NCBI GenBank assembly: GCA_028386065.3
Contig: JAKUCV010001116.1
Coordinates: 3,063-67,062, forward strand
Direction: 5' to 3'
Source of the DNA: Turnera subulata
Taxonomy: Eukaryota; Streptophyta; Magnoliopsida; Malpighiales; Passifloraceae
DNA: 64,000 nucleotides
The translations under genes and the position numbers were made by a program. Below, piece after piece: positions 3,975 through 56,604 of this stretch. The notes beneath the pieces are model-generated. The model was not told the DNA's origin and did not search any database. It worked only from the letters and a program-made list of their open reading frames with translations. Position 1 is the stretch's first letter. Every line of letters starts with the position of its first letter.

Positions 3975-3975
3975 T

Positions 3976-35412: not shown

Positions 35413-35589
35413 TCTGCCACTCATGTCGAAAAAAATCAGAATTATTGAGCAATAATTAATGTAGTGGCAGACATTTCCAAAAGCAAATCCTCGAGGATTG
35501 TAAAGCTTTGGAATTTTCTGAATAATAATATAATCCACCGAAAAATCTTTTAGATCTTTTCGGGAACACCTGGCTATCTATGCTCAGGC

Positions 35590-35597
35590 TATAAGAA
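35590..35597 (+). promoter_or_regulatory. TATA-like box upstream of the antisense ORF
   Basis: TATAAGAA lies 88 bp upstream of the ATG at 35678, on the plus strand. The second copy of the ORF has a better box (TATAAAAG) 115 bp upstream of its ATG. Confidence 0.4.
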
Positions 35598-35677
35598 GGG
35601 GGAAGGATTACATGGGAAGATACAGCAAAACTCATAGATATAGAAAAATCCATCAAAGCAAAAATTCCAAGACAAAA

Positions 35678-36361
35678 ATGCCTTCCCCAGCTACTGTTTT
35701 CTTTGTTGAAGGTGCCTCACTAGGCAGAAGAAATAGATTGGCCTATAGCATGGTGAATGAGCAGCAAGAGGAATTACCGAATGATCTGGCTAGAATTCCT
35801 CGTTTAGTGTTTGTAGATGAGCTATACTCGTCTAGGTTCTTTGTGACTCCAATGGAAGAAACTTTCTTCCTGGAGGACCAAGGCAATCTCAGGGCAAATT
35901 TTTATGGCTCAGCTAACTCTATAATGTTTTTCATATCTGCTAGGATGTAGGAATTTCAGCTAGAGCCTTCATGTCAAATTTTAAACCAAAGCAGTTATTA
36001 TCAGGTTTCCATGATGGCTCGGAGCGTCCCAAGGGTGACTGGGTTACCACCTACATGGCCTAAGGTACGACTTTTATTGTGGAATTGTAGGGGTATAGCA
36101 AGAAGGTCTCAAGACTTTGTGCGTACCTTAAGGGATCTGAAGAATCAGTACAAGCCTAACATGGTACTGATTACTGAGACTTTGTGGCAAGCAGGAGAGA
36201 ATCATGGTGTGATTCCACTTCGCTTTCCTCTAACGTATCGGTTTGAGATACCTGGAGAAAACAACAGGGGTGGTATGTGGTTCTTCTGGAACGACAGTGT
36301 TAGGGTCAACATTAATGGTGAGGCTCAGAGTTTCAGGGTTAATGTTGAACCCAACAGATAG
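35678..36361 (+). pseudogene. Antisense passenger ORF, copy 1: novel N-terminal domain plus truncated endonuclease-like domain
   Basis: A 228-codon frame from ATG 35678 to TAG 36359-36361 is broken only by TAG at 35948-35950; the other copy has CAG there. Residues 1-90 are unfamiliar: VFFVEGASLGRRNRLAYSM, then FVDELYSSRFFVTPMEETFF and FYGSANSIMFFIS. Residues from about 125 look like the start of a LINE-type endonuclease: RLLLWNCRGIARRS, then YKPNMVLITET (with the Asn and Glu positions of that fold), GGMWFFW and FRVNVEP. The later GDFN and SDHH catalytic motifs are absent, so nuclease activity is unlikely. The ORF runs opposite to its host element. It could be a captured gene or the element's own accessory ORF. 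Homologue: 55668-56350. Confidence 0.75.
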
Positions 36362-37248
36362 ATTACTTGTTTAAACATATGTATGAGAACCATTCTTCTT
36401 TGAATATTATCCAGTTATGGATCCATTTATGCAATAATAATATGCATGTTTGCTTTGAGCCTTTTCCATTTATTATCTCATTTACGCCCACAGGCACAAA
36501 TAATTATACTGCCTTATTCGCTTCAGGGAATAGATCAGAGTCAATTTATCGGGATCCATAATAATTCATTTTATTGCTGGGGGTGTCTGTACTCGCGTAA
36601 ATATACAATCTTCTAGATCATATTAAAACATGCGTTCTTCAGGAACATATTCGGAGTTATGCTCTTCTGGAGCGTGTTAATCTTTTTCTTATTTCGAGAA
36701 GTCATAATATGTTATGTTATATTGACATCCACACATATAATTCTCCCCCAGTGGATGTCAATTTTGCATTGTCTTCGAGACTAATGCTTGAGGCATTATT
36801 CTAGAAACAATTATAAAGTACTGAAAAGTAAATAAAATAAATTGCAATGCGTAATAATTTAAACTGAACTTGAATATAAAATGAATTGCTCCTTCAGGGT
36901 AAGCAAGTATAATATCCACCTTCTGGTGGTCATATAATTTCCATCTTCTGATGGTAATAGTTTTTATGTTTGATTTTCCTTTGAAGGATCTTCAGGATCT
37001 TTTGAACGGTAAGACTTCTAGTCTTCGTTGTATTTTTTTTAGTGAGTCTGCTGGACTTTTATTTTTAGTCTTCCAGACGATTATCATTTAAATGCATTGT
37101 AGCATTTAATGCCCATGATAAATTTCTTCCGAAAATTTTGCGGGCCTCAAATTCAAGTAACATAATCAAAAGACTTAATTAAAATAAATAAACATGGACC
37201 TTTTATTAATTATCCCAATGAAGAATTAAATAACCGAAAAATTAAAAG

Positions 37249-37491
37249 CAATGGGCCTTACATAAATGAGCCCAATTAAAATAAATGACTAAAAATTAAA
37301 TGCAATGGCCTTTTTTAAATTAGCCCAATAAAAATTAAACTATCGCAAAGTAAATACGATGGGCCTTATACGAGCCCAATAAAATCGTAAAGAAATTAAA
37401 ACGAGAAATTAAATACAATGGGCCTGATATGAGCCCCATTGAAATATAAAGAACAGAATATTAAAATATAATGGGCCTAATATGAGCCCAA
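37249..37491. repeat. Five units of an ATGGGCC...GAGCCCA repeat
   Basis: Units of about 45-60 bp each hold AATGGGCCTTATACGAGCCC or a variant, separated by A-rich sequence. TGGGCC and GGCCCA are inverted and could pair. The same unit occurs twice at 250-340 in the left-edge element. Confidence 0.85.
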
Positions 37492-37536
37492 GCTTAATAT
37501 AAATGAAAAATAATAAAATAAATACAATAGCCTTCT

Positions 37537-37676
37537 GGGCTTGCCGGGAAAAATCCCGAGACACTAAATTTCGGCCAAACACTTCCGGGCTTGCCGAGAA
37601 AAACCCAAGGTATCGGATTCCGGCCAAACACTTCTTGACTTGCCGGGAAAATTTCGAGATGCTAAATTTCGGCAAT
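37537..37676. repeat. Three units of a CTTGCCGGGAAAA repeat
   Basis: Units of about 48 bp: GGCTTGCCGGGAAAAATCCC, GGGCTTGCCGAGAAAAACCC, GACTTGCCGGGAAAATTTCG, each followed by a TTTCGGCCAAACACTTC-like tail. Confidence 0.85.
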
Positions 37677-37679
37677 ATA

Positions 37680-37833
37680 AATTCTTTTTTTTTTCTTTTT
37701 TTCTTTTCTCTTCCCTCTTTTCTTTCTTTCTCTCATTTTTTTTCTTTTCTCTTCCCTCTTTTCTTTCTTTCTCTCATTTTCTCTCCTTTTTTCTTTTTCT
37801 TTCTTTCCGTGTCCCTTTTTTTTCATTTTTTTT
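37680..37833. repeat. Pyrimidine-rich tract with an internal ~50-bp duplication
   Basis: Almost pure C/T. The block TCTTCCCTCTTTTCTTTC with flanks is repeated in tandem. It is a purine strand in the element's orientation. Confidence 0.85.
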
Positions 37834-38538
37834 AGATGAATGGGCCATGAACAGTGCTGGCCCTAGCCCATCACTGTTCCCGGCCCAGGGCAAAAACACA
37901 AATCCACTTGAAACCAGGCCCGCGACCTGTCGGGTCTGTCCGACCCATTCGGGTCATCTTCTTCATCTTGCGGGTCGCCGGCGCGAAGGGAGGGCAGCGA
38001 CAGACGAGAGGCAATGCAGGGATAGCGAGCACGGCGGCTTGGCTGAAGGAGGGCGAGGCGTCGGGTGCAGCAACGGTGGTCGACGCGAGCAGAAGGAAGG
38101 AGGCGGATCCAACGGTTCTTGTCGGGTCGTCGACTTCTGGAAGCACGTCCGGCAGCCGAAGAGGATGGAGAAGGCGTCGGGCGGTGGGCGACGGCGCGAG
38201 GAGCTTGCCGGTGTGGGCGGTGGGCGTCACTGCGTCTGACGGAGCTGTGTGAGGAAGAAAACAGACCCGATGGGTCATGTCGTGTCCATGGCCTCGGCCG
38301 TCGGGTCATCAGCCATGGACGGTGCGTCCGGCAGCGAAAATCGACGGGGGCGGTGGGGTTGAGCTCTCGACGGAACAGCGAAGCTGATGGTGGTGGTGGT
38401 GAGGCGAGAGGTGGCACCGATCGGGTCCTTATGAACAGTAACAGAGAGGAGCTTTTGAGGTGACGAACAGTATACTTGTCTTCTTCCTTTTTCCTTTTCA
38501 GTTTTTCCTTTGCTTGGCAGAGATCGTTGCTGATAACG

Positions 38539-38742
38539 TGTTATAAATAGAATTGTTATTATATGGATTGATGAAGAAGACGAAGTAGACGAAGAAGGAA
38601 TACATAAGAGAGGATAAATTGATGAACTCTGGATTTTTTCATTCAAAAATTCTCTGACAGCACCACAATATATAGGCCAAAAACAACACTGTTATGGTTG
38701 TTGGCTCACACTGACATTCACAAGCACGTTTTATTTATAACA
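38539..38742 (-). mobile_element. 5' LTR (204 bp)
   Basis: Starts TGTTATAAATAG and ends TTTATTTATAACA; joins the primer-binding-like sequence to its left. Confidence 0.93.
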
Positions 38743-40227
38743 AACTTCCAATTCATTCTATATTAAAATTTATCTATCCTCCTATTATGGGGACAAGTGA
38801 GTTGAGTTGCTGCATCATCATCGGTTCTGGTTGTTCCGGACCCAGTTAAGGCATGCAAGAAACCAAGCACAACTGGGCCGGTGTAAGATACTTTTTAAAG
38901 CTAATTAATGATTTCCTTCCTATCACAGCCCAGCAGCAGCAGCCCCCCAAAGGATCTGCTTGTGCTAAAAGAACTCAAAGTCCAGATATTTACCCCCTCC
39001 TCCAGGTTTCATGTTTGTGCCGCCCAGCCCCACCATCCACTTAGTGCTGTTGCCACTGCCACTCCCAACCCCAACCCCTATTGTGTCAACTGCCCCAAAT
39101 TTGGCCCCCGGGAGTTCGGCCTCCACTGGCCTGGGTACCTCTGGAGGAGTGCTGCACCTTATCAGCGCCCAATTCACTCCTTCAAAGAACGGATGCTGCT
39201 TTATCTCGGTTGCTCCCCTCTTCACCCTTAGCCTGTGCTGTGGTTCCTTCACCAGTAAGCCTCTTATCAGATCCCGGCTCGCATAGCTTGTAGCCGGCGT
39301 GTCTGGGAACCTAAGCTGCTGCCCCACCACGTTGAACAGTGTGGCCCGGTTCCTCGAGCCTTTGAATGGGGTCTTCCCATATAGCAGCTCATGCAAGAAG
39401 ATGCCAAATGTCCACCAGTCCACCGCACTCCCATGACCCTCTCCTTTGAAGATTTCAGGGGCAAGGTATTCATAGGTTCCCACGAAGGACATGGACCGGG
39501 CTGCTGTTGGCTCAACTACCAGCTCCAGGAGCGCATTTGCGGGTAATCCGACGTCTGTTCGGGGTTTTCGGCTTTTCTTCTTGCTCTTCTGAGGGAAGAT
39601 GCGAGGGATAAAGCAGGCAGGCTGAATGCACACCGACGTGGGCTCGATACAGGCTGGCTGGACACAGAATGCACCTCCGACAGCTCTTTTTGAAGGATCA
39701 GAATCAAATGATGTTTTTATCAGGGTGGGTGAAACTGCACACCTCAGGGAGAGGTCAAAGTCCGAAAGCATTATATGACCATCATCGCGGACAAGGACGT
39801 TTTCAGGTTTCAAGTCCCTGTACACAACTCCAAGCATATGGAGATATTCAAGAGCCAATAGAACCTCTGCAGCATAAAACCTGTATATATGAAACGAAAA
39901 TAAAAGAATCAGATAGCTAGAAAATTCAAGGCTTCTGGCTAAATATATCTATTACTCATGATGGAAGCTTATAACCAAATCTGAAAATGAAGATTCAGGA
40001 GTTATGGCATCCGGACAAATGGGAACACTGGAAACTCAAACAATCAACAGGGCCAAAACTAGAGATTGACAAATGAACATGTAAACAAGATAATTCCACC
40101 ATGGATAACGCAAACTAAGGATTTTTCCCGTCCCTCTGTGGATACCCTCAAGTCCAAACTGAATATCCTATAAGCCCGAAAAAAAAATTCAGGGAAAGAA
40201 ACAGCTTGAATATAAATGTTAGTCTGC
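38743..40227. repeat. Segmental duplication, left copy, part 2
   Basis: Aligns with about 44785-46291: kinase exon 2 plus the intron upstream of it. Similarity stops at AGTCTGC (40221-40227), six bases before the fold-back element. AACTT at 38743-38747 is the right target-site duplication of the LTR element. Confidence 0.9.
38965..39880 (-). pseudogene. Truncated AGC-VIII kinase copy (exon 2 only)
   Basis: The frame corresponds to exon 2 of the kinase at 45039-47698 and is fully open, with the acceptor (ATACAG) kept at 39881-39886. It encodes the C-lobe from [14 protein letters not shown] through RDLKPEN and SDFD to the end FEFF. The first exon, with the N-terminus, glycine-rich loop and catalytic lysine, is absent; the homology ends inside the intron. 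Three changes hit residues conserved in the intact copy: [12 protein letters not shown] for [12 protein letters not shown], and HRLRVKRG for HRLGVKRG. A non-functional partial duplicate is most likely. A fused transcript with upstream sequence cannot be excluded. Confidence 0.88.
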
Positions 40228-40232
40228 ACATA

Positions 40233-41219
40233 GCCGGCAACACGTGTTCAATTTATGTGAGGCCACGTCATCTGGTGGTCAACCCCACCCTGGGTTCCCC
40301 TCAGGTCTAACCATACCAAATACCAATTTTATTTTAAAAAATTGAGATTAAATCTAAAAATAATTTAAAATAAATAACTAATTTCACTTGTAAATAAGAA
40401 ATGAGATTAAAATTTTAAAATTAAAATTTTAAAATATAAATAAGTATAAATTTTATATATTATTTTTTTTAAAATAAAATTACGATTTAAAAAAAATCTT
40501 ATTTTTTAAAATTATAATAAAATTTATCAAAATAATTTTTTAATTTTTTTATAATTTTAAAAATATATTAATAAAAATAAAATTTATATTTTTGAAAAAA
40601 TAAATTATTATTAAAATCATATTTTATTTTGTAAAATTTTATTTTATAATTTAAAAATATAAATATTATAATTTAAAAAAATATATATTTATATATAAAT
40701 TTGTATAAAGTAAGTTTTTAAAAATAAAATAATTTTATTATAGACAATACTATAATTTATAACTTATAATGTTATAATTTAAAAAAAAATAAAATTTATT
40801 AAATATTTATTGTATAATTATTTATTTTTTAAAATTTATATTTATTTTATATATTTTCCAAAATTATAAAATTTATTTTTAAAAATTTATTATAATTTTT
40901 CAATAAAATTTTATTTTATTGATAATTTTATTTCTAAAATTAAATATATATATTTTATACATATTTATATTTTTAAAATTATAATTCATAAATTTTAATC
41001 TCATTTCTCATTTACAAGTGAAATTAATTATTTATTTTGAATTAATTTTATAATTGTTTTTAGATTTAATCTCAAATTTTGAAAATAAAATTAAATATTT
41101 GGTATGGTTAGACCCGGTATGGGTCGATATTTTAGTGGTTCGGATCATTATTGGGAGAACCATGGTGGGGTTGACCTCAGATGACGTGGACTAACATAAA
41201 TTGGACACTTGTCGTCGGC
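40233..41219. mobile_element. AT-rich fold-back (MITE-like) element, ~987 bp with long inverted arms
   Basis: The left end GCCGGCAACACGTGTTCAAT pairs with the right end (revcomp GCCGACGACAAGTGTCCAAT). Pairing continues inward through TTTATGTxAGxCCACGTCATCT, GGTCAACCCCACC, GGTCTAACCATACCAAAT and AGATTAAATCTAAAAA. The arms reach at least 170 bp and the AT-rich middle may extend them. No protein is encoded. I see no clear target-site duplication, so the superfamily is uncertain. Confidence 0.8.
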
Positions 41220-41353
41220 GACCCTCCAGCCACCAGAAGTACCAAAATCAATGAAAACCATCAAGTAGAGGTACTAAAAATTATGAAATTTAAGTACATG
41301 TACCAAAAACATCGAGGCCGAATACAAGTACAAAAAGACCCTTTAATCCTAGT

Positions 41354-41410
41354 AATGCCATATTAGAACAATACCAATGCTGCAGACTCGACCTCTTTGA
41401 AAGTCCTTAT
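41354..41410 (+). pseudogene. 57-bp fragment of an F-box gene
   Basis: AATGCCATATTAGAACAATA and the bases to 41410 match 42235-42291 inside the F-box gene with a few changes, one of which makes a stop (TTGGAA to TTAGAA is silent to the frame; the surrounding exon is missing). The fragment lies 135 bp from the fold-back element. It is a partial local duplicate. Confidence 0.7.
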
Positions 41411-41895
41411 TGCATATAACTCTTTTAGAAAAAACAAAATGGAATAAGAAAAGACTTCCTGGCAAGACTTTAAAACATAAATAGGTTCCTTCTTGGGATC
41501 AAGTTTCTGCCTTGAACTGAGTCAATGGATCTGCAACTGAAAAAAACACACATGTACAACTAAGGATGGGAGTGGAGGAGCAAATTAAGGTTTTCTAAAA
41601 AAATGTCAAGTTACAAATTACCAATAGAACTACCTAATAATCTGTACCATAACAATCCCAAAAAAAAAAAAAGGAAAAAGTCAATATCCACTGATTTTTT
41701 TCTTTCGTAAAAACAGGAATTGAAAAGAAGCTAAATAGAACAGCAACAAATTAGCAGACTTCAAGAGATACCATCATACATAAAGCCAAGACAACCCAAT
41801 GGAACCAACCAGAGAATAGAACAATAGAAATGCATGCATGCATGCACCCCTAGATAACCCTAAAAGGAAGGATATAGGCAATCGATCGGCAAGGA

Positions 41896-43059
41896 ATGGA
41901 TTCCTCAGCTACTTCCTCGTCGTCGTCGTCGCAGCGGTGCTGGTCGTCTGATATTCCGAGGGATCTTTTGGGAAGGATCGGGAAATGCTTCGACGGCAGC
42001 CGTCTTCACATCCTCCGTTTCCGGGCAGTTTGCCGGTCATGGCGATCTTCTACTCCTCTCCCGCCCATAATCTCCTCGTATCTCGACATTCCAACCCTTA
42101 CTAAGTATCCCGAAAAACTTGTGAGCTGTGTAATAGAAACCACCATTTACTCCATCCAGCCCCTCTCTGACTCCACTATCCCATGCTGGTTTTTGAGAGT
42201 CCAACACAAACAAGAAGGATCAGATCAAGATACTAATGCCATATTGGAACAATACCAATGCTGTAGACTCGACAAACTTGACAGTCCTTATAACTATCCT
42301 CTGCCCAAAGCTATAAACTTGCTTGATTTTAAGGTGTATGAGATATGCAATGATTATCGTGTGGGGATTCCGGGTTGGGAGATTCGGTGTACGAGCCCCG
42401 TCGCAGTTTCTTCTTGTTTTAAAAAGATAGGTAAGCCTAATGGTGATGGATTTGCGGTCATGGCAATGCATCGTGATTATTATAGGTTGGCTCTCTGGCG
42501 AATGGGGGTCGACGACAAATGGACTCTTGTTTTCGACCCTAACAACCGCGCCCATTATAGATTTACCAAGTTCCTTTACAGCCGCGGTAAATTTTATGTC
42601 TTTAATTGGGAAGGACTAGCTTTATCACTTGATCCTGCTCCAGATTCTGATTTGAAACTCACCCAAGTTGCTCCTCCTCCGGCGGCCGGGAACCACCAAT
42701 TTGATAATTGTTCACTACATTATGTACTAGAGTGTTGTGGGGTTATTCTTGGGATGTTTTGGCTTGATGAGAAGACATATGATATGCAGGTTGCGAGATT
42801 GGATGAAGAGGAGCAGCAATGGATTAAGGAGTCAGGAACCGGAGGAGGTGCCCTCAAAGATCACGTGGCTTTTTTTGGCCCATACCTTCTCCCATTCTAT
42901 TCATTTGTATGTTTGGCCAAATATTTACCGGGATACAAACCCAATTGCATTTATATGGATAAAGCTACTTATCCCAATCGACACCCACCATCAAAACCTG
43001 TTTGTGGTCACTCCGGCTCCAAACTTGTGGTTTTTGAGATGGAGAATAGTCATGCCTGA
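41896..43059 (+). CDS. F-box protein with DUF295-like C-terminus, probably frameshifted near its end
   Basis: A single-exon frame of 387 residues begins at ATG 41896. Residues about 15-52 form an F-box (WSSDIPRDLLGRIGKCF, then LRFRAVCRSWRSS), the SKP1-binding part of SCF ubiquitin ligases. The C-terminal part (GKFYVFNWEGLALSLDP, LVVFEMEN) resembles DUF295 proteins such as SKIP23. Relatives end in a WPPP-W motif. Here ILWPPPPWF lies in another frame (about 43090-43117), just past the stop at 43057-43059. So a one-base frameshift near 43040 probably removed the normal C-terminus of about 20-25 residues, or the sequence has an error. Substrate unknown. Confidence 0.8.
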   Translation: MDSSATSSSSSSQRCWSSDIPRDLLGRIGKCFDGSRLHILRFRAVCRSWRSSTPLPPIISSYLDIPTLTKYPEKLVSCVIETTIYSIQPLSDSTIPCWFLRVQHKQEGSDQDTNAILEQYQCCRLDKLDSPYNYPLPKAINLLDFKVYEICNDYRVGIPGWEIRCTSPVAVSSCFKKIGKPNGDGFAVMAMHRDYYRLALWRMGVDDKWTLVFDPNNRAHYRFTKFLYSRGKFYVFNWEGLALSLDPAPDSDLKLTQVAPPPAAGNHQFDNCSLHYVLECCGVILGMFWLDEKTYDMQVARLDEEEQQWIKESGTGGGALKDHVAFFGPYLLPFYSFVCLAKYLPGYKPNCIYMDKATYPNRHPPSKPVCGHSGSKLVVFEMENSHA

Positions 43060-44230
43060 ATTGTGTGATCAATACGGTTGCTCCCCAATCTTATGGCCAC
43101 CACCTCCTTGGTTCGACTCAACAACCACCCCCAGAAGAAGAAACAACCGGCAGAAGAAGAAGCAGCACAACACAAACAAGAGTAGTCGATGAATCAGGTA
43201 ATCAGAATTAATCTTTTGTTTTCTTTTTAACACTTTTTTCTATATGATCCGCATCCTGATATTTATATCTTCAAGTTACTTATCAAGACAAATGAAATTA
43301 TATTGCTTTCTTTCAGATAGATACATTCAATAGATTCTCGAGTGTGGCTCAAATCTATACCACCTAAATTTCTTAATTCATGTTGCGACTTAATTGCTGG
43401 CATTAGAAGGAAGCCGGGAGGAGATTCGATTAAGATCAATACCCACCTTGTTCTGTAATCAAGTAGTTACGATACTGTATTAGGAGGAGTATTGTCATTA
43501 CTCATTACCATGTGCCATTACGTTAATAAGAAGTGATTCATTCTTTCTCCCTGCTGCAGGATTTTTACTAGAATATTTATTTCTTCTCCTACATTTGATA
43601 ACAGCTTTTCTATCTTGAGTTGTTTTGCAAGTGTTTTTCCTTTTATTATATAGCATGTACTTTTTTTTGTTTGTTCTCTCAATGAGAAAGTAAAGATTTT
43701 TCATTTTTTTAAAATTTTTTGTTCATGATTAAATAGGTGAATATTCTTGGTCTTCACTCCAGAGCAAAGGGAAACAAAATTAGCCTACATCTTTATGATC
43801 AATCCAGAGTTGAGAACAAAAAAAAAAAGTAAAAAGGCAATACTGATGCTTCCTTGCTAATGGGTTCTCTTATATATACACCAAGTTTATTAGGTATAAT
43901 TTTTTTTTAAAAAAAAATATATTTCCCAACCATGTATCGTTTTGCTTCTTCTATGTTTATTCTGGTGTTCATTTTCCTATGTTTCTATTGAAAGTTGTAA
44001 CAGATTTGCCATTCCAGTTTTATCCAGAAAAATCGATGCCAGAATTTTTTACATGGCTTGGCTTATACTTTCCTCTTATTTGTATAAATTTTCTAATTTA
44101 TAGGACCTTTCTAAAGTATAACTTAAAATATTTACTGACATTAAAAGCAAAATATTTATACTACCAAATCATGTGCAACAATATATTTTTTCAATCGTCA
44201 AACCCGAATCAAAGCCAGGGCCTTTGGGTA
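43060..44230. other. Intergenic stretch, no gene seen
   Basis: Holds the displaced WPPPPWF codons of the F-box gene, then AT-rich sequence with T-runs at 43661-43670 and 43902-43918. No recognisable gene. Confidence 0.6.
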
Positions 44231-46291
44231 GTAAAACAACAGACAGAGAACTATAGCATAGCTCTCTTATCTGTGTATACCCAAATCCGAAAGTGGATAT
44301 CCGGGAGTGGATGTGGGAGTGTGGGGCTAAGAGGTGGACCAAAGGGTAAACACACAAAACAAAGTTAAAAAAGCAAATTATAGCCCGGCATTATGTTTTT
44401 TTTTTTTCAGAGGTTTACTCAATTTTCACCCCAGTGTTGGTCGGTCCAAACCTTGCATATATTCCAAACTTATTTCTCCCAAATGTTTGTATATTTCCGA
44501 CTTATTTCTCTCAATTTTTGTTGTTGTTGTTGTTGTTGTGTTTTGTCAACCTGTATTCTTAAAGCAGAAACTGCGCATTTTAAGCTGCTCCGATTTTCAT
44601 CTCAAACTGGCTGGGCACGCCTCACGTAATAATCGAGAGGGTTTTTTCCTACGAGATGGAAATTTCTTCTTCATACAAAGTCAAAAGACCACAATTTGCT
44701 CTAGAAAAATGGCACCGCCTTAAAAGGCCCCAACACCCTACAACTACTACTATAATATACTCCATTGAAATTTGAAACTACACTACCAATTCTTCATTCT
44801 ATATTAAAGATTTATCTATCCTCCTCCTATTGTAGGAACAAGTGTGAGTTGAGTTGCTGCATCATCATCATCATCATCGGTTATGGTAGTTCCGGACCCA
44901 GTCAACGCATGCATGCAAGAAACCATGCATAACTCGGCCCGTGTAATAAGATTTTTCAAAGCTAATTAATCTCAATCATTTCCTTCCTATCACAAAGCCC
45001 AGCAGCAGCCGCAGCCCAAAGGATCATGTCTGTCTGTGCTAAAAGAACTCGAAGTCCAGATATTTACCCCCTCCAGGTTTCATGTCTGTGCCGCCCAGCC
45101 CCACCATCCGCTTACTGCTGTTGCCACTGCCACTCCCAACCCCAACCCCTATTGTGTCAACTGCCCCAAATTTGGCCCCCGGGAGTTCGGCCTCCACTGG
45201 CCTGGGTACCTCTGGGGGAGTGCTGCACCTTATCAGCGCCCAATTCACTCCTTCAAAGAACGGATGCTGCTTTATCTCGGTTGCTCCCCTCTTCACCCCT
45301 AGCCTGTGCTGTGGTTCCTTCACCAGCAAGCCTCTTATCAGGTCTCGGCTCGCGTAGCTTGTAGCCGGGGTGTCTGGGAACCTAAGCTGCTGCCCCACCA
45401 CGTTGAACAGTGTGGCCCGGTTCCCCGAGCCTTTGAATGGGGTCTTCCCATATAGCAGCTCATGCAAGAAGATGCCAAATGTCCACCAGTCCACCGCACT
45501 CCCATGACCCTCTCCTTTGATGATTTCAGGGGCAAGGTATTCATGGGTTCCCACGAAGGACATGGACCGGGCTGCTGTCGGTTCAGCTACCAGCTCCGGG
45601 AGCGCATTTGCGGGTAATCCGAGGTCTGTTCGGGGTTTTCGGCTTTTCTTCTTGCTCTTCTGAGGGAAGATGCGAGGGATAAAGCAGGCAGGCTGAATGC
45701 ACACCGACGTGGGCTCGATACAGGCTGGCTGGACACAGAATGCACCTCCGGCAGCTCTTTTTGAAGGATCAGAATCAAATGATGTTTTTATCAGGGTGGG
45801 TGAAACTGCACACCTCAGGGAGAGGTCAAAGTCTGAAAGCATTATATGACCATCATCACGGACAAGTACGTTTTCAGGTTTCAAGTCCCTGTACACAACT
45901 CCAAGCATGTGGAGATATTCAAGAGCCAATAAAACCTCTGCAGCATAAAACCTGTATATATGAAACAAAAATAAAAGAATCAGATAGCAAGAAAATTCAA
46001 GGCTTCTGGCTAAATATATCTATGACTCATGATGGAAGCTCTTATAACCAAATCTGAAAATGAAGATTCAGGAGTTATGGCATCCGTTCAAATGGGAACA
46101 CTGAAAACTCAAAATATCAACAGGGCTAAAACTGGAGATTGACAAATGGATAACCCAAACTAAGGAGTACTTCATTTTTCCCATCCTTCATGTGGATACC
46201 CTCCTCAAGTCCTAACTGAAAATCCTATAAACCCGAAAGACCGAAAGAAATTTCAGGGAAAGAAACAGCTTGACTATAAATGCTAGTCTGC
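44231..46291. repeat. Segmental duplication, right copy (with empty site at ~44785)
   Basis: This copy of about 2.06 kb contains kinase exon 2 and part of its intron. The sequence CTACACTACCAATTC near 44777-44791 is the undisturbed counterpart of the target site at 32620/38743. Confidence 0.9.
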
Positions 46292-47698
46292 TATGTTTCT
46301 ACATAACAGTAAAGCAGCATGCCTACTTGCTATATAACAACTTTAAGTAGTAAGCATCGCCAGGGAATTTACAACTGCAGGACTTTGTGCACATAAGAAG
46401 CTCATGAAGCCATACCTTGCAGCATACTCAGAAAAATGTTTCCCCGGTTGCCGTTGCCTCAGAGTGTGCAGATCACCTCCTGGACAATATTCCATGACCA
46501 AACATGAGAATCTGTCGGTTTCAAAATGAGTATACAAAGTTGGCAAGAATGGATGATCCAACAGCTGCAAAATCTCCCTTTCTGTTTGAGCTCTTGTCAA
46601 CTTCTTCCTGCTAGCAAGAGATGCCTTATCCATGACTTTCATTGCAAAGAAACAACGAGTTCCACTTAGTTCCGAAAGATACACACTGCCAATATCACCA
46701 CAACCAAGCCGTCTAAGTAATCTAAAGTGGCTCATGCCTAGAATTCCATCTCGTGCTCTGATAGCAAGTATAGCCTTCCAACGGGGATCATTTCCTTTGT
46801 GAGGCTTATTTGCACTACCAGTTATATTGCTCCAATTACTGTCATCGCTAAGGCCACTGCTATCACTTGCCCGGCTAACACTTGTCTTTGCACTCTCAAG
46901 AGAATCCCCTCTAACACTGACACTGCCCTTCGTACTTTCATAGTTTCTGTCCATACTAATCAAGCCATCACTTGTCATACCATCACTTCTATATGTACTA
47001 GCACAGCTATTGACAATGCTCATAGCTCTAACAACACCCATACTGTCGATGCTACTATGAGGACTTACATTACCACTTGGAGGCAAAGAGGCATCCCAGA
47101 CACACTCTTTCTCTTCTGAATCGGGTGGAAGCAGGGAGTTTTCTGTATTCTGTGATGCACGAGCAATGGAAAATGGAGAAGAGAGCGCAACTAAGTCGTG
47201 GGGTTCTTCAACCACACTTTCTGCAGGTGAAAGAACAGCAGGGCTTGGTTTTTTAGGTGGGACCCTGATTGAAAGATCTTCCAGAAAAGGCCCCTTCACA
47301 GACATACTCTTCATGAGGCATCCAGCCTCGGATTTCTTCTGGCTTATTGGCACGTATACTGTCGTCATTAGATCTGTATCGATGGGCTCTGGTGGATGAC
47401 TAACCCCGGAGAAAGAACTAGGACCACCTTCATCAAAGGAATCAGTACTGCCTTTAGAAGTAACAGCATCAGGCATTAGCTCTTCTTGCAGAGACAGGTC
47501 CTTGCCTTTCCATGGTCTTACAGGCACGGGAAAATCTGGAACTTGAGAGACTTGCGCGTTAAATCGCCCCACCACTTCTCTGACCAAACCTGCCTGCACT
47601 TTTGCCACATGGCCCGCTTCTTTCCCTGATGCCATGGATAGCTTCCCTCCAACAGGTAAATCCCTGGGTAGAGCTCCCGATTCTGGAATCCTTTCCAT
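45039..47698 (-). CDS. AGC-VIII protein kinase, D6PK/PVPK-1-like, 2 coding exons
   Basis: Exon 1 is 47698-46416 and exon 2 is 45951-45039; with one GT-AG intron they give 731 residues. The first 320 residues are serine-rich and of low conservation. The kinase domain starts near 324 ([17 protein letters not shown], catalytic Lys in [14 protein letters not shown]). It has DFD in place of DFG, the signature of plant AGC-VIII kinases, followed by a long insertion and [16 protein letters not shown]. The protein ends KYLDFEFF, a hydrophobic motif for PDK1 binding. The intron position within the catalytic domain (YAAR/FYAAE) matches D6PK-type genes. D6PK-like kinases phosphorylate PIN auxin exporters at the plasma membrane; that is inferred from family. 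The long N-terminus resembles PVPK-1 more than D6PK itself. Confidence 0.92.
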
Positions 47699-49270
47699 TT
47701 CAGGGAACTATATAATATCTCATGGAATGATCTCTTCCTCCCCAGTAACCTGCAAATTGGAAGAAGAGAAGATTAGATAGGATTTTACTTTTGCTGGTGA
47801 ACTTAATCACCTGTTGGCAGCTCGTTAAAAAAACAGTTAACTGCTCATTCTATTCCCAACCATGAACCGGGATGTCAGCAACATAATAAGATTGTCTCGA
47901 GTTCCATGAAAATCAATAGGCGTAGAGCCATTATAAACTGGAAGGAGACCAAGTATATAACCAAATACAAGCAAAACAAGGGGTTTTGCGGCCAGTGTCT
48001 GTGCAGTGCAGCAAAATAGACCAAAGAGGTATCTTTCAAAGTTTCACACATACAGAGACATCAGGAATCATCTATGATTCATTAGCACAAAATATAAGAG
48101 ATTTTCTCCCCAACGCAAGGAATGAAGCAATGATATAGTAGTTGATCGTCTTGAGTGACCAATTAATTGGTCGCAAAATCTACATGCACCAAAATGGCTC
48201 TAACAACAAAAGATCGTTGATTTGGTTTGCTACGCAAAGGTACTCTTTAGCAGATATATGCAATAGAAAATCTGATCCTCAGATTCTATTTTTGTTTTTG
48301 TTATATTTCTCTTAATTGTCCAGTCCAGAGAACTGTCCTCGCGAAAGCAGGGGAAAAGAAAGTAGCACATCATATCCACAACAAGAGAAAAAAAAAAAGA
48401 AAAAAGGAGAAAAGGCATCAAGTTTAGGAATGCAATCCAGCAGCAAAAATGAAACCGAAATCGAGAGAGGAAACCACAAAAGCCTTGTATGGTAACACAA
48501 CAGACAAGTAAGAAGAATCTGAAAATGGCAACCAAATGAAGCAACTAACAAAAGATGATGGGCTCACCACCGCTCACCAAATTCTTAACTTCATTCAACT
48601 TCTAACCAGAATAACACTAAAAGCTCTAAAATTGAGGAAAGAAATCACAAGAATGGAAAAGGAGGGAGAGGGAAGAATGGGAGATGATAACAAAGTGTGG
48701 AGTGAAGTGGCAATGTTCCGATTTCGAGGCCATAATCACCTTCAAAATTCCAAGCAACAAAACAGCAAAGACAAAAAGATACAGAGAGGGATCTCGAAAC
48801 CCCAAAAATTTATCAAGAACAAAAAAAAAAACCCATAAAAGCGAAGAAGGAATAAAACAAAGTAAGCATGGGAACAGAGTTTTTTTTGTTCTTTTTTTCA
48901 AAAAACAACAAAAAGAAAGAAGGAAAGAGGCAAAGGAAAACGCACCAGGGAACTGAAAACCAACAAGAATAGGGAAGGGAGGAGAAGAATAAAGTTACTG
49001 GGGAGGGGAGGGGAGGGGAGGGGGGGTGTTTGGGTTTTGTTTCTTTGTTTTGGTAATAGTAGCAGGATTTTGGGAGGTTGCGAGAGCAGGGGACTCTCTC
49101 TCTATACCAGAAACTTGGAAATGAACAGAGAAGATGAAAGTATTATTATTACTATTACTTTTATTCAAGCTGTTACATCAACCAAGTAGTAGTAGTATTA
49201 CTTTAGTTCCTTTCTATTCTGCGTCTTCTCTCTCTATATTTTTGGCTTTACTTTGCTGACTTGCACAGAG
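47699..49270 (-). promoter_or_regulatory. Kinase 5' UTR with a probable leader intron
   Basis: On the minus strand TTTGCAG ends at 47750, a good acceptor 50 bp before the start codon. A candidate donor (CCTG then GTGCGTTTT, revcomp near 48940) would give a leader intron of about 1.2 kb. T-rich runs between them fit an intron. The upstream (CT)n and TCTATA sequences at about 49092-49240 could be the first exon or promoter. No coding content. Confidence 0.45.
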
Positions 49271-52200
49271 CAGAGTAGGGAGAGTGGCTTTACCTTTGTC
49301 TGCAAACAAAATTGCTTTTTTGGGTGGTGAGAGGGAGGAGCCCCCGGTAGCTTTTGCTTTATTTGTTTGTGCGCTGTGTGCGTTTGTTTCTCTTCTACTC
49401 TCTGCTTTGCACCTTTATTTTAATTTAATTAGATTTTTGGTTTGTCAAAATGTACCAGTAGTGTTTAGATTGAAAGAAAACAGATTGGAAATAAAAGATA
49501 TAAGAACATGGAGATGCAGTGGAAAATGGAGAATATACCAACCTTGCAAGCGGAGCCAACCATTGCTAGGCTACTTACTACTACTCCTCTTTTGTTGTTG
49601 TTTGTGGCAAAAAAAATCAAAAAGGAAGGGGAGACGGAGGGGAATAGTGTGGTGCGAGTTTGTGAGCCCAGAGAGGGAGGGGGTGGGCTCTATGTGGCCC
49701 ACCCGCTGTTCCTCCTTTATACTACACTGCTTTTCAAAGAGGTGGGGTCTCCCCCTCCCTCTCTCTCTCCTCATTTTTTTACCACGCCCCTTTGACAGCG
49801 CGTCACCTTATACTATTTCCTTGTTTGTGCCCATTTCATTGCAAACACCTACTAAAACTAAACTAATTTTGAGGCCAGATAATTAATAATTAACCCACAC
49901 TGCCTCTCCAGTCCATCAGGTACCCGCACTTTTGTCGTGATTTAGTAGCAATAATCCCATGTGCAAAGTGCAAAAAACCATTGTGTGTTTTAGGCACAAT
50001 TACTGGTGCTAATAAAACCCCTTACTTACCATCTCACCAATTAATGGCGAGCAAGCAAGCTAGTTCTAAAATGAACTTAATTGTAGTAGTTAGTAGTAGA
50101 GAAACGAAAAAAAGGGGGGGCGCGTTGGGATCTGTAGTATTGCAGCGGAACAGGGTAGAATGTGGAAATGACCCCGCAGGCTCTGTAGCCTTGTAGCTAT
50201 CGGATTCGGCCCGGGGGACATGACCAGACCAGACCAGCCAAAGGATATATATATATATATATGGCCGAAACAAGGCTCAATTTGGAAAAAGACGGGCTAA
50301 GCTACGCGTGCATGGTCAATGTCCAGCAAGTAATATATATATGCCAGTTGCCTGCCCTACTACTAGTCAAATAATTTGACGAATGAGTGTTTAGACAACG
50401 GTTAACGGGATCCATTCCTGACCCCCGCCCAGTATATTAGAGACCTAGATAAAGCAACTACAATACACACCCATCAGTGAGTGGTCAGCTTCTCAACCCA
50501 GCTTTAATTAGCTGCTACCACTGGACACCACAACACAACAGTCTTTCCCATCCCATCCTCGATCCCTTATTCCCCCACCTTGGATACGTTTTTTCACAAT
50601 ATCAATTGTACCATGCCTAGTATATCCTCTCTACCTTCTAATTACTTTACAGCATATCTATATCCTACCCAGAGCCACGCATTGCTAACCTATGTCACAT
50701 TCACAACCACCCAGTAAAAAAGATTCTATATCTTATTCTATTTCTACCCATGATTCAAATGCGCTACCCTATGCCTATTATTTCTTATAGGAACACTGTT
50801 CAAACAAAAATTATTTCCTATAGGAATAGCCCTTGCATGGTTTACTAGGGTTGCCATTGGTTATCCCCAAATAATTAATCAATACCCCAATGCATCCTGG
50901 CTGCTAATTGCTTTCTACTTATTAAGTTCCGTGCTAAATGCACTTTCTGCATATGGACAGGATTCCACAACAGCAACAAGAGAAAAGAAAAATGGAGGCC
51001 TATATATGTCTGTTTCATATGCTAATATCATAGGAAAGCCGGTCAAAGTAAATTTGGTATCCAACTAAAGCTATTCACACATCTAGCCAGTGCAATCCTC
51101 TCATGCCCATTACTACTCATTCTGAAAAGCAGGTGTTCTATTGTGATAATTATTCAGCTCATCTGCCGATGGCATGCATTTTTGTCGACAAGCTTTTTCT
51201 TAAAAGAAAAAGAAAAAAATAAAGAATTATGATGAATGTTGATGATGATGTAGTTTAACTAATGGATGGATGATGTGGATCGTGATTGGGTAACTTTATA
51301 TATATATATACATATTGATGGTCACGATCAAATGCACAAGTTGTCATGTGAGTTGCAATCCCATGAAAGCTCTACTTAGTGATTAAAATGATTAGCTCAA
51401 TATTTTACTAGTCCCATGCCAAAACCATCACCACCCACATTTCCAAAAAAGAAGCGTTTTTGTAATCTGCATAAAATGTACTACTAGTAAGTTGTGGGCC
51501 TTCCCCGTTGCTCCCTTGCTTTTTGAAAAGGGGGAAATAAGAGGTTTGAAAGTGTGGGATTATTAGGTTAGTAGCAGTGTATTGTCTTGGAATTAGAAAA
51601 AGGGACGCATTCAAAGGTGGGCTCTTTCATAATTCTTTCTCACTTAAACGATTTGGTCCACCAAAGACTTTTCGCAGTGGGCTGTTCGCAATTATTACCA
51701 GCGAATACTCACTCTGCACTAAATCAGGAGCATAATTAAGTGTTCACCGCGGGGGATCAGTTTTGGATCGACTCTTTAATGTGTTCGTACGTTTGGTTTT
51801 TGTGTGTGAGGATTAATTTGCAGATTTGAAAGTAAGAAGCCAATTGTTAAACTTTCCCTGTAAACCTAGAATTGGGATCTAATTAGAAAATGTATTTTCA
51901 CTGATCCTCCAATCAGTCACGTCAGCCCGGGTATGTTAGTAGTAATTCTTAGCTGGATTACTTCAGTTCAATGTACTGCAATAAATTGCATACATCTTTC
52001 TTGAATTGACCACAAATGTAGCTCGAGTGTTTGTTCCCTGCAGAGGGAATAGTTTTTTCCCTTTCCGTGGATCAAAAGGCCTAACTTCTCCATAGAGCAG
52101 AAGTTACCATCACCTGTCATGTTTGTGCATATGACCAGACCCAGTGACAAGTGATGACTTTTGCCTTGCTTCCAGAATTTTCTTCTCTCACGTCGTTGCA

Positions 52201-52801
52201 AATGTTTCTCAAAATTTTACGGGGCCCAAAACAATTGGGCCTGTGATCCGGTTTTAAAGTTGTTATACCTGCCCCTGGGGGTGGTACATATAGAATAAAT
52301 AAATGGACCTTGCGAGCCTGTGTAGTGTGTGTACCTCAGCAAGGGTTAGAAACTGTGCTGGGCTACTGAAACTAAATGGCTTCTTCTATGCCTCCGATTA
52401 CTAGGTAAAGAGCGTGAAAAAATAAAGACGATCAAGGAAAGAGAGAGCATCGAGAAGAGTTAACGTCGACGATTAATAATAACCCTTCTATGCCAGCAGG
52501 CTTCTTGCTTAGGGGCATCTCCTTAGTTTTTGTAATTACTCTTAGGCCAGGTGATTTGGAAATTCAAAGATAACATAATGTAACTTACACACTAATGTCA
52601 AGTCAAATTAATGGTTCACGGCTTATGATTTTAGTTTGCTCAATTTCATAGAGTCTCAATTTGATACTAATCAAGGATCCATGTGCAAGCTTTTAAGCCA
52701 CTAACATTATTTTTGTACTTCTCATTATAAAAAAACATTATTCTTGTACCGCAATTTGTCACTTGATAAATGACAAATAATATCACACAAGCTGCCCATA
52801 T
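49271..52801. other. Intergenic region, no gene seen
   Basis: It lies between the divergent kinase promoter and the gypsy-like element. A (TA)n run at 50246-50262 and another at 51296-51311 are visible. A C/T-rich block is at 49747-49775. No frame in this 3.5 kb has recognisable content. Confidence 0.55.
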
Positions 52802-54243
52802 TGAAACGCCCCGACCCGTATTTACCGTACACAGTAAACACGTGCCGGAACTATGATGACCCAACCAAACCAAGCCCAGCATACAGTGTATACAACAGAA
52901 ACTCGGGCTCAACAGCCCCAAATAAAAACATCAATAATAACTCAACCGGCCCAATGGCCCAATAATATCAATAAACTGCACAGCGGAAGACTTAATAACT
53001 CACAAAACACTGTATGAGACACAGATGCAAACTATGGATCCAAGTGCTGTCCAAGGGATAACGCCGCAGCCTGTCTGGTATGCACCAAACCTGTACCACA
53101 AATAACTCATCCTTGGCCGATTACTCAACTCCGGAAACAATGACCGGTCCGACGCCGGCTCCTCGGGAAACTGCCCGACATCAAAACCTTGTGGGCTCCG
53201 GCGGCAGCACGAACAGGACGAAGGCGGCACAACGGGACGGGCAGCAACAGCAAGGGTGGCGTGCAGGGGAGGCAACGATGGTGTCGTGTCGCGGCGAGGG
53301 AAGAGGAAGGACGTCCGGTCCTTACGTCGTCGGGTCGTCACGACATCTAGGCGACGGGCGGCGTGGCCTGCAGCGACGAGGAGAGCGGGGGTCGACGACG
53401 AGAGGAAGGATAAGGAGAAGAGGGTGGCGGCGACGAGGTGGTGTTGGTGAGGCTCGACTGGTGTAGAGGCGGTGGGTGGTAGCGGGTTCACGGCCACGAC
53501 GGCGGTGGAGGAAAGGAAGAAAAAGAAGAGAGGAGGGGTGTGTGTTGTTGTCTCGTGGGGCGGCGGTTGGTGGCTGGTCGTAGGGTCGGTTGGCGGAGAG
53601 GGGAAGAAGAGATGGTGGTGGCGGTTGATGGAGGTTCGGTGGTGGCGGATTCAGGCAGAAGAAGATGGTGGAGGGCGCGTGTGGTCTGAGGCAAGGGAAG
53701 GAAAAGACAGAGAGAGAGGGAAAGGCAGGAGGGTGTGGGTGTGTGGAGTAACGGGAAGAGGAAAAGAATGGAAGGAATAATTGAGGGAGGAAGAGACAAG
53801 GGAAGAAAGGAAGAAAAGATTGAAAGTGAGGGGAGGGGCCGGCAAGTCACGAGAAAGAAAAAAAAAAAAGGGAGGCCGGCGGCTGAAAGAAAAGGAGAAG
53901 GAGAAAAGAAAGAGAAGAAAGGAAAAAGAAGAGGAAAGAAAGGAAGAATGGCCACGTGGCAAGCCACGATTGGCCGAACCGGATTTCCGTCCCGAGTCCG
54001 AAAATACAACTTGGGCTCGGAAAATCCGATTAATACCCCTGAACGTCGTCCAAGTCTCGGAATTAAAAACCGAGGCTCGGTTAGTTAGAAAGATACTCCC
54101 GAGTGCGGGAAAACCCTCGGTTACGAAAACACAACGCCCGATTTACCTTGAATTAATTACCCAAGATTAATTCAACAGTAAATCACGGTAAAAAGACTTT
54201 TACAGTCCCAGTAAAAATCCAAAATTTTACCCGGGCTGTTACA
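52802..54243 (-). mobile_element. 3' LTR, full length (1,442 bp)
   Basis: Begins TGAAACGCCCCGACCCG and ends CCCGGGCTGTTACA. Very GC-rich between 53100 and 53700, then purine-rich to 53950. Long arginine-rich frames on both strands reflect this composition. Confidence 0.9.
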
Positions 54244-54387
54244 ATCTACCCACCTTAAAAAGAATTTCATCCCCAAAATTCCGTCTTATCCGTGGGTCCT
54301 ACCACGATAAGCTTCTGGCACACTCTGCCAAGTGTCCAACCTCAACCCGAGATACCGCTTATACCCTTAAGCGACATCTCATCCTCT

Positions 54388-54395
54388 TATAAATA
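54388..54395 (+). promoter_or_regulatory. TATA box before the small antisense ORF
   Basis: TATAAATA on the plus strand, 42 bp upstream of the ATG at 54430. The implied leader would be very short (about 5-12 nt). Confidence 0.5.
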
Positions 54396-54429
54396 CCAAA
54401 CCTCATAATTGAGACACTCACTCTCAGCC

Positions 54430-54807
54430 ATGGACTCTCCACTCCGATCTCGAACTACCTCCGACTCTGAGAACAACAGCTATATCGGTGGCACTGCTTT
54501 CCTGACAAGCTCCGATGAAGAACCTCCCAAGAAGCGGTTCAAAACCAACATCATCGGCCTGAAAGAGCACATGGTCGTCTCCAGCTGACGGCAAAAGAAA
54601 CGTGCTCCAAAAGAAGCTGAGGATCGAAAGGGTAAAGCAATGGCTGAAAGCAGCACTCCGCAGCAGACTTTGACGCTGCTGAACGTCTCACTGAAGAAGA
54701 TCAGCTCGGCGGTGTTGCAAATCGAACTGGCGTGCGCGGAGCTCTTCCCTCACATGAAAAATGTACAAAAGCTTGTAAAAGACCTAGAGAAGCAAGTAAC
54801 TCAATAG
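54430..54807 (+). pseudogene. Small antisense ORF: basic, predicted coiled-coil protein, one nonsense codon
   Basis: A 126-codon frame from ATG 54430 to TAG 54805-54807, broken only by TGA at 54586-54588 followed by CGG. A CGA to TGA change (CpG transition) explains it. The first half is serine-rich with a bipartite-like basic patch (PPKKRFK, then RQKKRAPKE after the stop), suggesting nuclear localisation. The second half has heptad-like spacing (LTLLNVSLKKISSAVLQIEL, then VQKLVKDLEKQV), suggesting a coiled coil. AATAAA follows at 54844-54849. It has no recognised family. It lies antisense to the host element, near its 3' LTR. Confidence 0.6.
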
Positions 54808-55552
54808 GGTACTTCTTCTCCGTTGTAAAACTGTTATGCTTTAAATAAAATAAGTTTCCTTTTTAAATCAAAACTCTTATGCCACGAAATCTTATGTTTA
54901 ACAGAAAATAAAACATCTCAAAGCAAAACAAAAATCAACAATAAGAATATAAAATCAAATATAAAGAAATTAAAAACAAAAATTCGTTTAACAAAACCAA
55001 AACATAAAGAAGTTAAACAAAACATATTCACATGATTGGTGCTCGTATCGGACGTAAACACCCTCGAACCCAAGAAACATAACATACACAGCTAACGGTG
55101 ACGTCGGTTTCCCTCGTGAAAAAGACGTCCGTTATCTCGTAAGGCGATGATCACGGGAACGTCCTGTGTCCCTCGAAAGAAATGTTACCCATTTGTTCAC
55201 AAATTCCGCATAAGCCAAAAACATTTGTCAAGTCTCGTATTTCTCCACGATGTCCGAACAGCTGTAAGCTTGTCGCACATGCGCTCTACTCGAGGTACGG
55301 TCCCATCAGTCTAGCCACAACAGTCACGAATGCATGTGATAAAAGATGCAAGAAAATATAGAAAAACCATGAAAAGAAAGGACAAGGTAGCCAGAGCGAA
55401 AGAAATCATAAGATGGAAAAAAGGCTGAAAAACACTGGCATTCATAGCCCGAAAAATGTATAAAGTAATGAAACAATAAATGAAGCAACGGAAAAATTTT
55501 CAAAAAGCAAAATCTTGAAAATCGAAAACGGTAATCACGCTCCCCATAAGAG

Positions 55553-55560
55553 TATAAAAG
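55553..55560 (+). promoter_or_regulatory. TATA box before antisense ORF copy 2
   Basis: TATAAAAG on the plus strand, 115 bp upstream of ATG 55668; a consensus plant TATA box. The matching place in the other element has TATAAGAA. Confidence 0.55.
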
Positions 55561-55667
55561 ACGGAGCGGTGAGGTGTAAATCATCAAAAGCATTTGAAAG
55601 AAAACAAACCGCTCAGGCAAATAAAACACAACGTTCGTAAAACAAAACCCCACACGTCCAAAACAAG

Positions 55668-56350
55668 ATGCCTGCTCCCTCATCCGTCTTCTTCGTCGAA
55701 GGTGCCAACCTAGGCAGAAGAAACCGGCTGGCCTACAGCATGATCAACGAGCGTCTAGAGGAACTACCGAACGAGCTCGGCAGAATGCCCCGTCTGGTCT
55801 TCGTCGACGAACTCTACTCGTCCAGATTCTTCGTCACTCCCATGGAAGAGACGTTTTTCCTAGAGGACCACGGCACTCTGAGGACCTCCTTCTATGGCTC
55901 GGCAAACTCCATCATGTTTTTCATCTCTAAAAGACTTCAGGAATTCAACCTAGAGTCCACTTGCCAATTCCCGGAGCAAGGTTCCTACTACCAGCTCTCG
56001 ATGACAGCCCAAAGCATGCCCAGAATGACTCGCTACCTCCAACTTGGCCAAAGGCCCGACTGCTGGTGTGGAACTGCAGAGGAGTTGCAAGGCATTCCCA
56101 AGAGTTCTCACGTACCCTGAGGGACCTGAAGAACCAGTACAAACCAAACATGGTTCTTCTCACTAAGACCCAGTGGCAACCTGAAGACGATCACGGTCTC
56201 ATCCCACTCCGGTTCCCTGCAGCAAACCGGTTCGAGCTTCCTGGCCAGAACAACGCAGGCGGCATGTGGTTCTCGTGGAGCGACAGGAACACGGTTAACA
56301 TCAACAGTGACCCCAACAGCTTCAGGGTCAACATCGTTCCAAGGCAATAA
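55668..56350 (+). pseudogene. Antisense passenger ORF, copy 2: novel domain plus truncated endonuclease-like domain
   Basis: Homologue of 35678-36361. The frame from ATG 55668 runs open to about 56033, where one base is missing, and continues in the next frame to TAA 56348-56350. Total length is 683 nt against 684 nt in the other copy, which fits one lost base. The unfamiliar N-terminal part reads VFFVEGANLGRRNRLAYSM, LVFVDELYSSRFFVTPMEET and FYGSANSIMFFIS; the C-terminal part RLLVWNCRGVARHS, YKPNMVLLTKT and GGMWFSW. Where the LINE-type fold would have Glu (TET) this copy has TKT, so it is probably not a nuclease. Third positions are C-rich here but A/T-rich in copy 1. AATAAA overlaps the stop. 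Confidence 0.78.
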
Positions 56351-56604
56351 ATGTATTTTTCTTTTTTATAAAATATCAATGTAATATTTCTGTTTGTAAT
56401 CAAAATATTAGCCATATTAATAATATTTATATTTTCGCTTATTTATGGCATCATTTACCTCATATGTGAATGTTCTGCGACAGCTGGTGTCCTTTGACTG
56501 GATCCATAATGCACTAACTAAAATGATATAAAATAATAAACAAATGGAGCGAGCTATGCAATCAAGGACAACAAACACACAAGGACTTCCCAACAAGACC
56601 TAAC

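Follow-up and report, generated by a model that had tools for sequence, protein, structure and literature searches.

Some plant gypsy retrotransposons carry extra open reading frames (ORFs) in the antisense orientation; the examples in the sections cited are gene23 of maize Grande, rice RIRE2, ORF4 and the TRP28 ORFs of Silene Retand, and bean PvRetro13 (PMC7264820, PMC11963269). Grande gene23 is described there as nuclear and as transcribed from its own promoter (PMC7264820), and the same part of this review terms the origin and function of plant retrotransposon antisense ORFs unknown. In bdelloid rotifers, extra ORF3s (DEDDy, GDSL) are reported to be common to different retroelement types (relevant excerpt of PMC5408684). 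Thus, antisense extra ORFs and extra ORFs common to different retroelements are both known kinds. Here we describe an antisense ORF family, ORF1, two copies of which lie in a stretch of 64,000 nt from Turnera subulata (assembly GCA_028386065.3, contig JAKUCV010001116.1, positions 3,063 to 67,062 of the forward strand), referred to as the window. ORF1 is very probably an accessory gene of long terminal repeat (LTR) retrotransposons, preceded by a promoter-like TATA box and exchanged in antisense orientation among at least three LTR lineages, and its predicted product is chimeric.

In the literature searched we found no description of the ORF1 protein, of its chimeric architecture or of its distribution across copia and gypsy-like hosts, nor of one antisense ORF common to copia and gypsy. 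A screen of 121 angiosperm genomes yielded, in the portion of the report consulted, 15 extra domains, which were confined to gypsy and absent from copia elements (PMC9289625). As described there, this screen began from reverse transcriptase (RT), and therefore elements like those considered below could have escaped it.

Two ORF1 copies in different host elements

In the window, ORF1 is represented by copy A (35678..36361, plus strand) and copy B (55668..56350, plus strand), which the initial annotation regarded as ORFs for homologous proteins of about 227 residues. The homology was borne out by an alignment of 677 bp with 70.6% nucleotide identity, which starts approximately 12 bp 5' of the ATG and ends near the stop codon. 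The length of 227 residues is correct for the family. Both window copies, however, are broken: an in-frame stop interrupts copy A at codon 91, and in copy B a frame change near 56.03 kb leaves the frame from 55668 uninterrupted for 150 codons only. The residues are identical at 89 of 117 positions in the first aligned block and at 71 of 102 in the second. The nucleotide differences at codon positions 1, 2 and 3 number 24, 11 and 67 in the first block (67 of 102 at the third position) and 24, 12 and 58 in the second (58 of 94). Accordingly, the proportion of synonymous differences (pS) is 0.83 and that of nonsynonymous differences (pN) 0.14-0.16, and the reverse strand of the region contains stops in every frame. 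The two copies belong to the same protein family, on which purifying selection is strong; a chance resemblance was rejected because of the codon-position pattern and the thousands of copies in the genome.

Element A (32625..38742, minus strand) is a non-autonomous copy of a short-LTR copia element, defined by its LTR pair and target-site duplication (TSD) and assigned to copia by an RVT_2 match in its relative L065. Copia-like LTRs of 205 bp had been proposed, and we measured 204 bp for the 5' LTR (38539-38742, minus strand) and 210 bp for the 3' LTR (32625-32834, minus strand); their alignment shows a single substitution over 204 positions and six gap columns. The TSD AACTT is found on both sides (32620-32624 and 38743-38747), and at the corresponding places of three further A-type copies, LTR pairs align over 115, 205 and 216 bp. 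Near 44.7-44.9 kb, the flanks recur as a diverged duplicate that spans the insertion point without the element; this paralogous empty site indicates that element A was inserted as a single unit.

Between ORF1 and the 3' LTR lies a decayed copia pol relic (32835..35660, minus strand), which has many stops in three frames and is riddled with stops in the window copy as well as in locus L062. Its copia motifs were recognised by eye. In L065, an uninterrupted piece of 97 codons matched RVT_2 with E 7.4e-7 (29.4 bits, cut-off 31.6). A Pfam search with the frames of the relic of A gave SH3_retrovirus only, below its cut-off (E 0.036), and two of three uninterrupted pol-relic pieces had no Pfam match. 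Proteins of the other copia element of the window gave no tblastn match at E<=1 in elements A and B or in loci L061-L063.

Element B (52802..57444, minus strand) is gypsy-like according to its junction sequence, and no gag or pol was seen in its 2.4-kb interior. LTRs of 1.4 kb had been noted, which holds for the 3' LTR on the left (52802-54243, minus strand, 1442 bp) and not for the 5' LTR on the right (56624-57444, minus strand), which lacks about 0.6 kb of its inner part and measures just 821 bp. The flanks CATAT and CAATA do not form a clean TSD. On the minus strand, the junction adjoining the 3' LTR reads AAGGTGGGTAGATTGTAACA, and in the related locus L068 AAGGGGGTAGACTGTAACG. We take this form of junction between polypurine tract (PPT) and LTR to be that of Tekay-type chromoviruses; element B itself has no RT.

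Both ORFs are on the plus strand while both elements are read on the minus strand according to the sides of the primer-binding site (PBS) and PPT, which we partly assume from general knowledge of such sites. In agreement with the initial annotation, ORF1 is thus antisense to its hosts and lies at their 5' side, in element A between the 5' LTR and the pol relic. Outside ORF1, the interiors of elements A and B have nothing in common at the blastn level.

Copies and conservation of ORF1 in the genome

The assembly of the window (519 Mb, 7125 contigs) was scanned for further copies. With ORF1 of A, 40 of 3321 first-look candidates were scored and found to be 96-100% identical; with ORF1 of B, 40 places among 4308 candidates were scored, with identities of 93-100% and one 95-bp fragment at 82%. 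A 27-nt pattern encoding the nine ORF1 residues MEETFFLED had 2639 exact matches, while the reversed control had two.

For each type, 30 loci were fetched, counting in the copies of the window. Of these 30, 27 A loci and 20 B loci have an ORF1 that is uninterrupted to its usual length (two B copies extend seven codons further). The pN/pS ratio was 0.13 within A (27 copies; pS 0.046, pN 0.006) and 0.15 within B (20 copies; pS 0.186, pN 0.028), and between the families pS reached 0.846 and pN 0.146 at 73% identical residues. Among A loci, the flanks diverge by 0.072-0.074 and ORF1 by 0.015, and the divergence changes abruptly at either edge of the ORF. A-type interior was present on both sides of ORF1 in all 30 A loci, and B-type LTR sequence inside 24 of 30 B loci. 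In the sampled loci, ORF1 is a fixed part of each host family. As with the antisense ORFs of plant gypsy elements, most copies retain it and its coding sequence is conserved, in a sample biased to well-kept copies. The G+C content of third codon positions is 0.68 in B and 0.42 in A.

A third host with gag-pol

From 100 listed matches of the 27-nt pattern, six loci were picked by codon variant. They added the short-LTR copia types C (L064, L065) and D (L066, L067) and the gypsy-like types E (L068) and F (L069). LTR pairs were found in L065 (218 bp), L066 (226 bp), L067 (258 bp) and L069 (about 0.82-0.86 kb), and none in a search of L064 and L068; L065 has the TSD AAAGG and L066 the TSD AATTG. 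ORF1 is uninterrupted in L065 and interrupted or shortened in the other five loci. Three more loci comprised an A-type copy with its first residues in another frame (L071), an uninterrupted B variant (L072), and a new type, G (L070), in which ORF1 is uninterrupted, 228 codons long and antisense.

The G host (contig C222) is a copia element with gag-pol: on one strand, Pfam matches to Retrotran_gag_2 (E 6e-25), integrase (E 3e-17) and RVT_2 (E 4e-42) were found in several uninterrupted stretches with breaks between them. Gag-pol is followed by ORF1 on the opposite strand and then by a sense ORF (L070:2758-3201, L074:32-1000, plus strand) with a Transposase_32 match of 43.5 bits (cut-off 45). 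This sense ORF has an acidic C-terminus. Judging from the RNase H region, G is presumably SIRE-like. Together with A and B, three kinds of ORF1 hosts exist: copia with gag-pol, short-LTR copia with dead pol, and gypsy-like elements without gag-pol. ORF1 is located beyond pol in G (3' LTR not seen) and upstream of the pol relic in A, while B has no pol.

The sequence from the pol end of G through ORF1 was used as a query and 40 loci, among them C222, were scored. In 36 of these a single match extends from the query start into or through ORF1, at 74-100% identity; in 35 of the 36 the match ran through the whole ORF1, and in the remaining four loci the matches were shorter or in two pieces. Since the 40 loci are the best of 6546 candidates, these counts set a minimum and do not estimate a frequency. 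With ORF1 of G as sole query, 24 copies of 85-100% identity were obtained, all of them among the scored pol-ORF1 loci, and in all 24 the ORF1 strand is opposite to pol. The antisense orientation in G is thus read from pol itself, and in A and B from PBS and PPT. There are 16 further ORF1 copies that are 76-77% identical to that of G (e.g. G000:C4553:27681-28347), and diverged G sub-lineages (74-77%) have the same pol-ORF1 arrangement in at least 12 loci (e.g. G000:C6864:44970-46445).

In blastn comparisons, G shares only ORF1 with loci of types A to F, except for 88 bp upstream of ORF1 that are 75% identical between L070 and L069. Its RT piece is 27% identical to that of L065 over 77 positions and 56% to that of the other copia element of the window over 62 positions; on these values, A and G belong to separate lineages of copia. 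The 3.2-kb stretch around ORF1 in L070 showed no LTR pair that would mark a nested element.

ORF1 trees

In a DNA tree of 19 rows without G, one branch (100/100) divides the gypsy-borne from the copia-borne ORF1 sequences. In a DNA tree of 22 rows, to which G, L071 and L072 were added, the 11 short-LTR copia copies form one group (100/100), while G, although copia, groups with B (98/93) and not with them. Types E and F are across that branch from G and B, which forces two changes of the gypsy label. A protein tree of 17 rows, in which only one branch was starred, also places G with B (94/89) and has E on the B side.

A chimeric protein and its promoter-like signals

The ORF1 product consists of an N-terminal part of about 125 residues and the first half of an endonuclease of the kind found in long interspersed nuclear elements (LINEs). 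For residues 1-125 no relatives were found in Pfam, a protein collection, viral contigs or PDB: the protein collection gave 58 candidates with none at E<=0.001 and 555 with none at E<=1, the viral contigs 46 pattern matches with none confirmed, and PDB only matches at chance level, plant sequence probably being scarce in these last three, so that their negative results carry little weight. Two AlphaFold2 models had a mean predicted local distance difference test (pLDDT) score of 35. The TRP28 domain (PF04195) had no Pfam match in ORF1 at E<=1, which sets ORF1 apart from the TRP28 ORFs of Retand.

Residues ~129-227 align with the endonuclease start of a LINE at 3.9-6.2 kb of the window. This LINE-like element (window 2265-8142) has ORFs of 569, 771 and 574 aa. 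In hhalign, the C-terminal part of ORF1 scored 23.8 against the LINE endonuclease, compared with a maximum of 10.7 in 200 shuffles and of 8.2 for those of 40 window pieces that are not from the LINE; the probability for the match was modest (24-36%). Pfam endonuclease matches were sub-threshold where bits were shown (4 of 13 members, best E 0.0084), and a plain profile hidden Markov model gave E 0.41. The aligned ~100 residues resemble the start of the LINE apurinic/apyrimidinic endonuclease (Exo_endo_phos; WN-RG, ET, GG-W--W). Unlike in this enzyme, the second half is absent, an unrelated N-terminal part is fused to the first half, and no RT follows. The Exo_endo_phos match covers profile positions 2-85 of 225, and as the alignment ends at the protein end, the second half of the domain and what we take to be its catalytic residues are missing. 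Having only the first half of the domain, the ORF1 product is probably not an active nuclease. Half of ORF1 thereby gains an ancestry, the LINE endonuclease.

TATA-like boxes precede ORF1 of A (TATAAG, 35590..35595, plus strand, 88 bp 5' of the start) and of B (TATAAA, 55553..55558, plus strand, 115 bp 5' of the start). Of the A loci, 29 of 30 have such a box within 190 nt of the ORF1 start, as have 28 of 29 B loci, and each of L064-L070 has one within 200 nt. In the interval from -130 to -80 it is present at 26 of the 30 A loci and 25 of the 29 B loci, as against 17% and 9% of background windows, and in types C and D it is closer (about -60 to -68). Since the copies are related, the presence of the box upstream in all seven sampled lineages outweighs the raw counts.

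Probable exchange between hosts and possible function

The two-ORF observation is confirmed, and the suggested exchange between LTR families is supported by the shared ORF1, the distinct LTRs and interiors and the finding of three host types instead of two. One gene has a fixed place and orientation in each family and is under purifying selection, in hosts which share almost no other DNA. The second suggestion of the initial annotation, a module spreading on its own, was not supported, as homology stops close to ORF1 and no mobile-element ends were seen there. That the LTRs belong to one family was rejected, since LTRs and interiors of the hosts differ. Nesting is common in plant genomes as a matter of general knowledge, and an element jump could in principle have carried an ORF1 native to one family into another. 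This is extremely improbable and was also rejected: tens of loci per family have ORF1 at the same position, the hosts have no common flanks, no LTR pair surrounds ORF1 in L070, and element A has an empty site.

Independent capture by each family from one host gene or LINE-derived gene has in its favour that the LINE-like C-terminal half implies a chimeric gene at some time. It is unlikely in view of the identical fusion, ends and antisense orientation in all sampled hosts and of the 88 bp (75%) which L070 and L069 additionally share upstream; moreover, no ORF1 copy outside an LTR element was seen among the sampled loci. Exchange is also favoured over host capture for the bdelloid ORF3s in the cited excerpt (PMC5408684), where, as here, one ORF type occurs in LTR elements of different lineages. 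The bdelloid ORF3s are additionally found in other retroelements, show no significant departure from neutrality and are not described as antisense in that excerpt, while ORF1 is antisense and under strong purifying selection. With the antisense ORFs of plant gypsy elements ORF1 shares its orientation and its conservation in most copies. Those ORFs are situated between pol and the 3' LTR, and in the third host ORF1 lies beyond pol (3' LTR not seen). It differs from them by having neither TRP28 nor any other Pfam domain save the sub-threshold endonuclease match, by occurring as one ORF in both copia and gypsy-like hosts, and by its 5' location in A and B, where pol is dead or absent. The nearest functional parallel in the literature examined is Grande gene23, for which an own promoter is reported in the section cited (PMC7264820); for ORF1 a TATA-like box is predicted from sequence alone.

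Several points weigh against an exchange among three lineages. Without G, the gypsy and copia copies split cleanly (100/100), so that the incongruence depends on one sequenced G copy, and with three host types two label changes are needed in any tree. E is on the B side in the protein tree and on the copia side in the DNA tree, with support below the starred level, and B and its kin deviate in base composition. The trees were made from ORF1 sequences, and the hosts were compared by blastn and by pieces of RT. The G host is defined by its interior, and the gypsy label proposed for B, E and F comes from the junction sequence. Further, the loci were retrieved via ORF1 itself, which favours well-kept copies. 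Finally, the candidate promoter, the predicted product and the possible functions considered below are all deduced from the DNA.

The route and direction of the transfer, like the function, are matters of inference. ORF1 may have moved by template switching between co-packaged RNAs or by DNA recombination. As its strand is not that of the genomic RNA, the protein would be made from an antisense transcript of integrated copies only, and it could therefore not favour its own packaged RNA by being translated from it. Selection would thus be expected to work at the level of integrated copies or of the family as a whole, and this suggests an effect on transcription or chromatin more than on particles. 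Since ORF1 crosses copia and gypsy-like hosts under purifying selection, it must help at a step common to them. Tentatively, we suggest that the protein may act on the transcription or chromatin of integrated elements, for example against silencing. It is a somewhat bolder and rather doubtful extension that both superfamilies trade an antisense chromatin-acting gene, which the gag-pol-less elements would keep as a transcription booster, i.e. for anti-silencing. If true, an anti-silencing gene would have been passed from one genomic parasite to another. That one such ORF crosses these hosts, two of which lack a working gag-pol, narrows the question of antisense ORF function.

The protein could instead work in trans in the retrotransposition cycle (nuclear entry, integration targeting or particle assembly), and the gag-pol-less elements would then retain ORF1 for its benefit to the borrowed machinery by which they move. 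The gag-pol of the third host fits such a role, and the cited parts of the literature propose a similar role for antisense ORFs (PMC7264820) and a template-switch origin of shared ORFs (PMC5408684). However, the protein is not encoded on the packaged strand, so that a benefit at the family level must be assumed, and the second half of the nuclease domain is missing; we regard both the role and the reason for its retention as conceivable and not probable. The same review section allows that antisense transcripts act in retroelements (PMC7264820), and the antisense RNA rather than the protein might matter, by double-stranded RNA control of the element. This was rejected as very unlikely, because the amino acids are constrained within families (pN/pS 0.13-0.15) while synonymous sites are nearly saturated between A and B.

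ORF2 and neighbouring features

Element B contains a second antisense ORF, ORF2 (54430..54807, plus strand), which has 125 codons in relatives and an in-frame stop in the window copy (54586-54588). Frames of 120-139 codons are present in 19 of 30 B loci, and L068 has a homologue of 136 codons (L068:2152-2547). The pN/pS ratio of 13 copies of exactly 125 codons is 0.19. The ORF2 product has a serine-rich/acidic start, a basic PPKKRFK stretch and a coiled-coil-like end, and gave only sub-threshold Pfam matches. In the window copy and in L068, a TATA-like box of its own is located 43 bp upstream.

Another copia-like element (window 25972-29613, minus strand) has gag, integrase and RT-like ORFs and no ORF1 match. 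A protein-kinase-like gene stretch is duplicated together with its flank (window 32032-40227 and 44238-46291; 90% identity over 1530 bp and 69% over 616 bp). Element A resides within one of these duplicates, and the other one contains the empty site.

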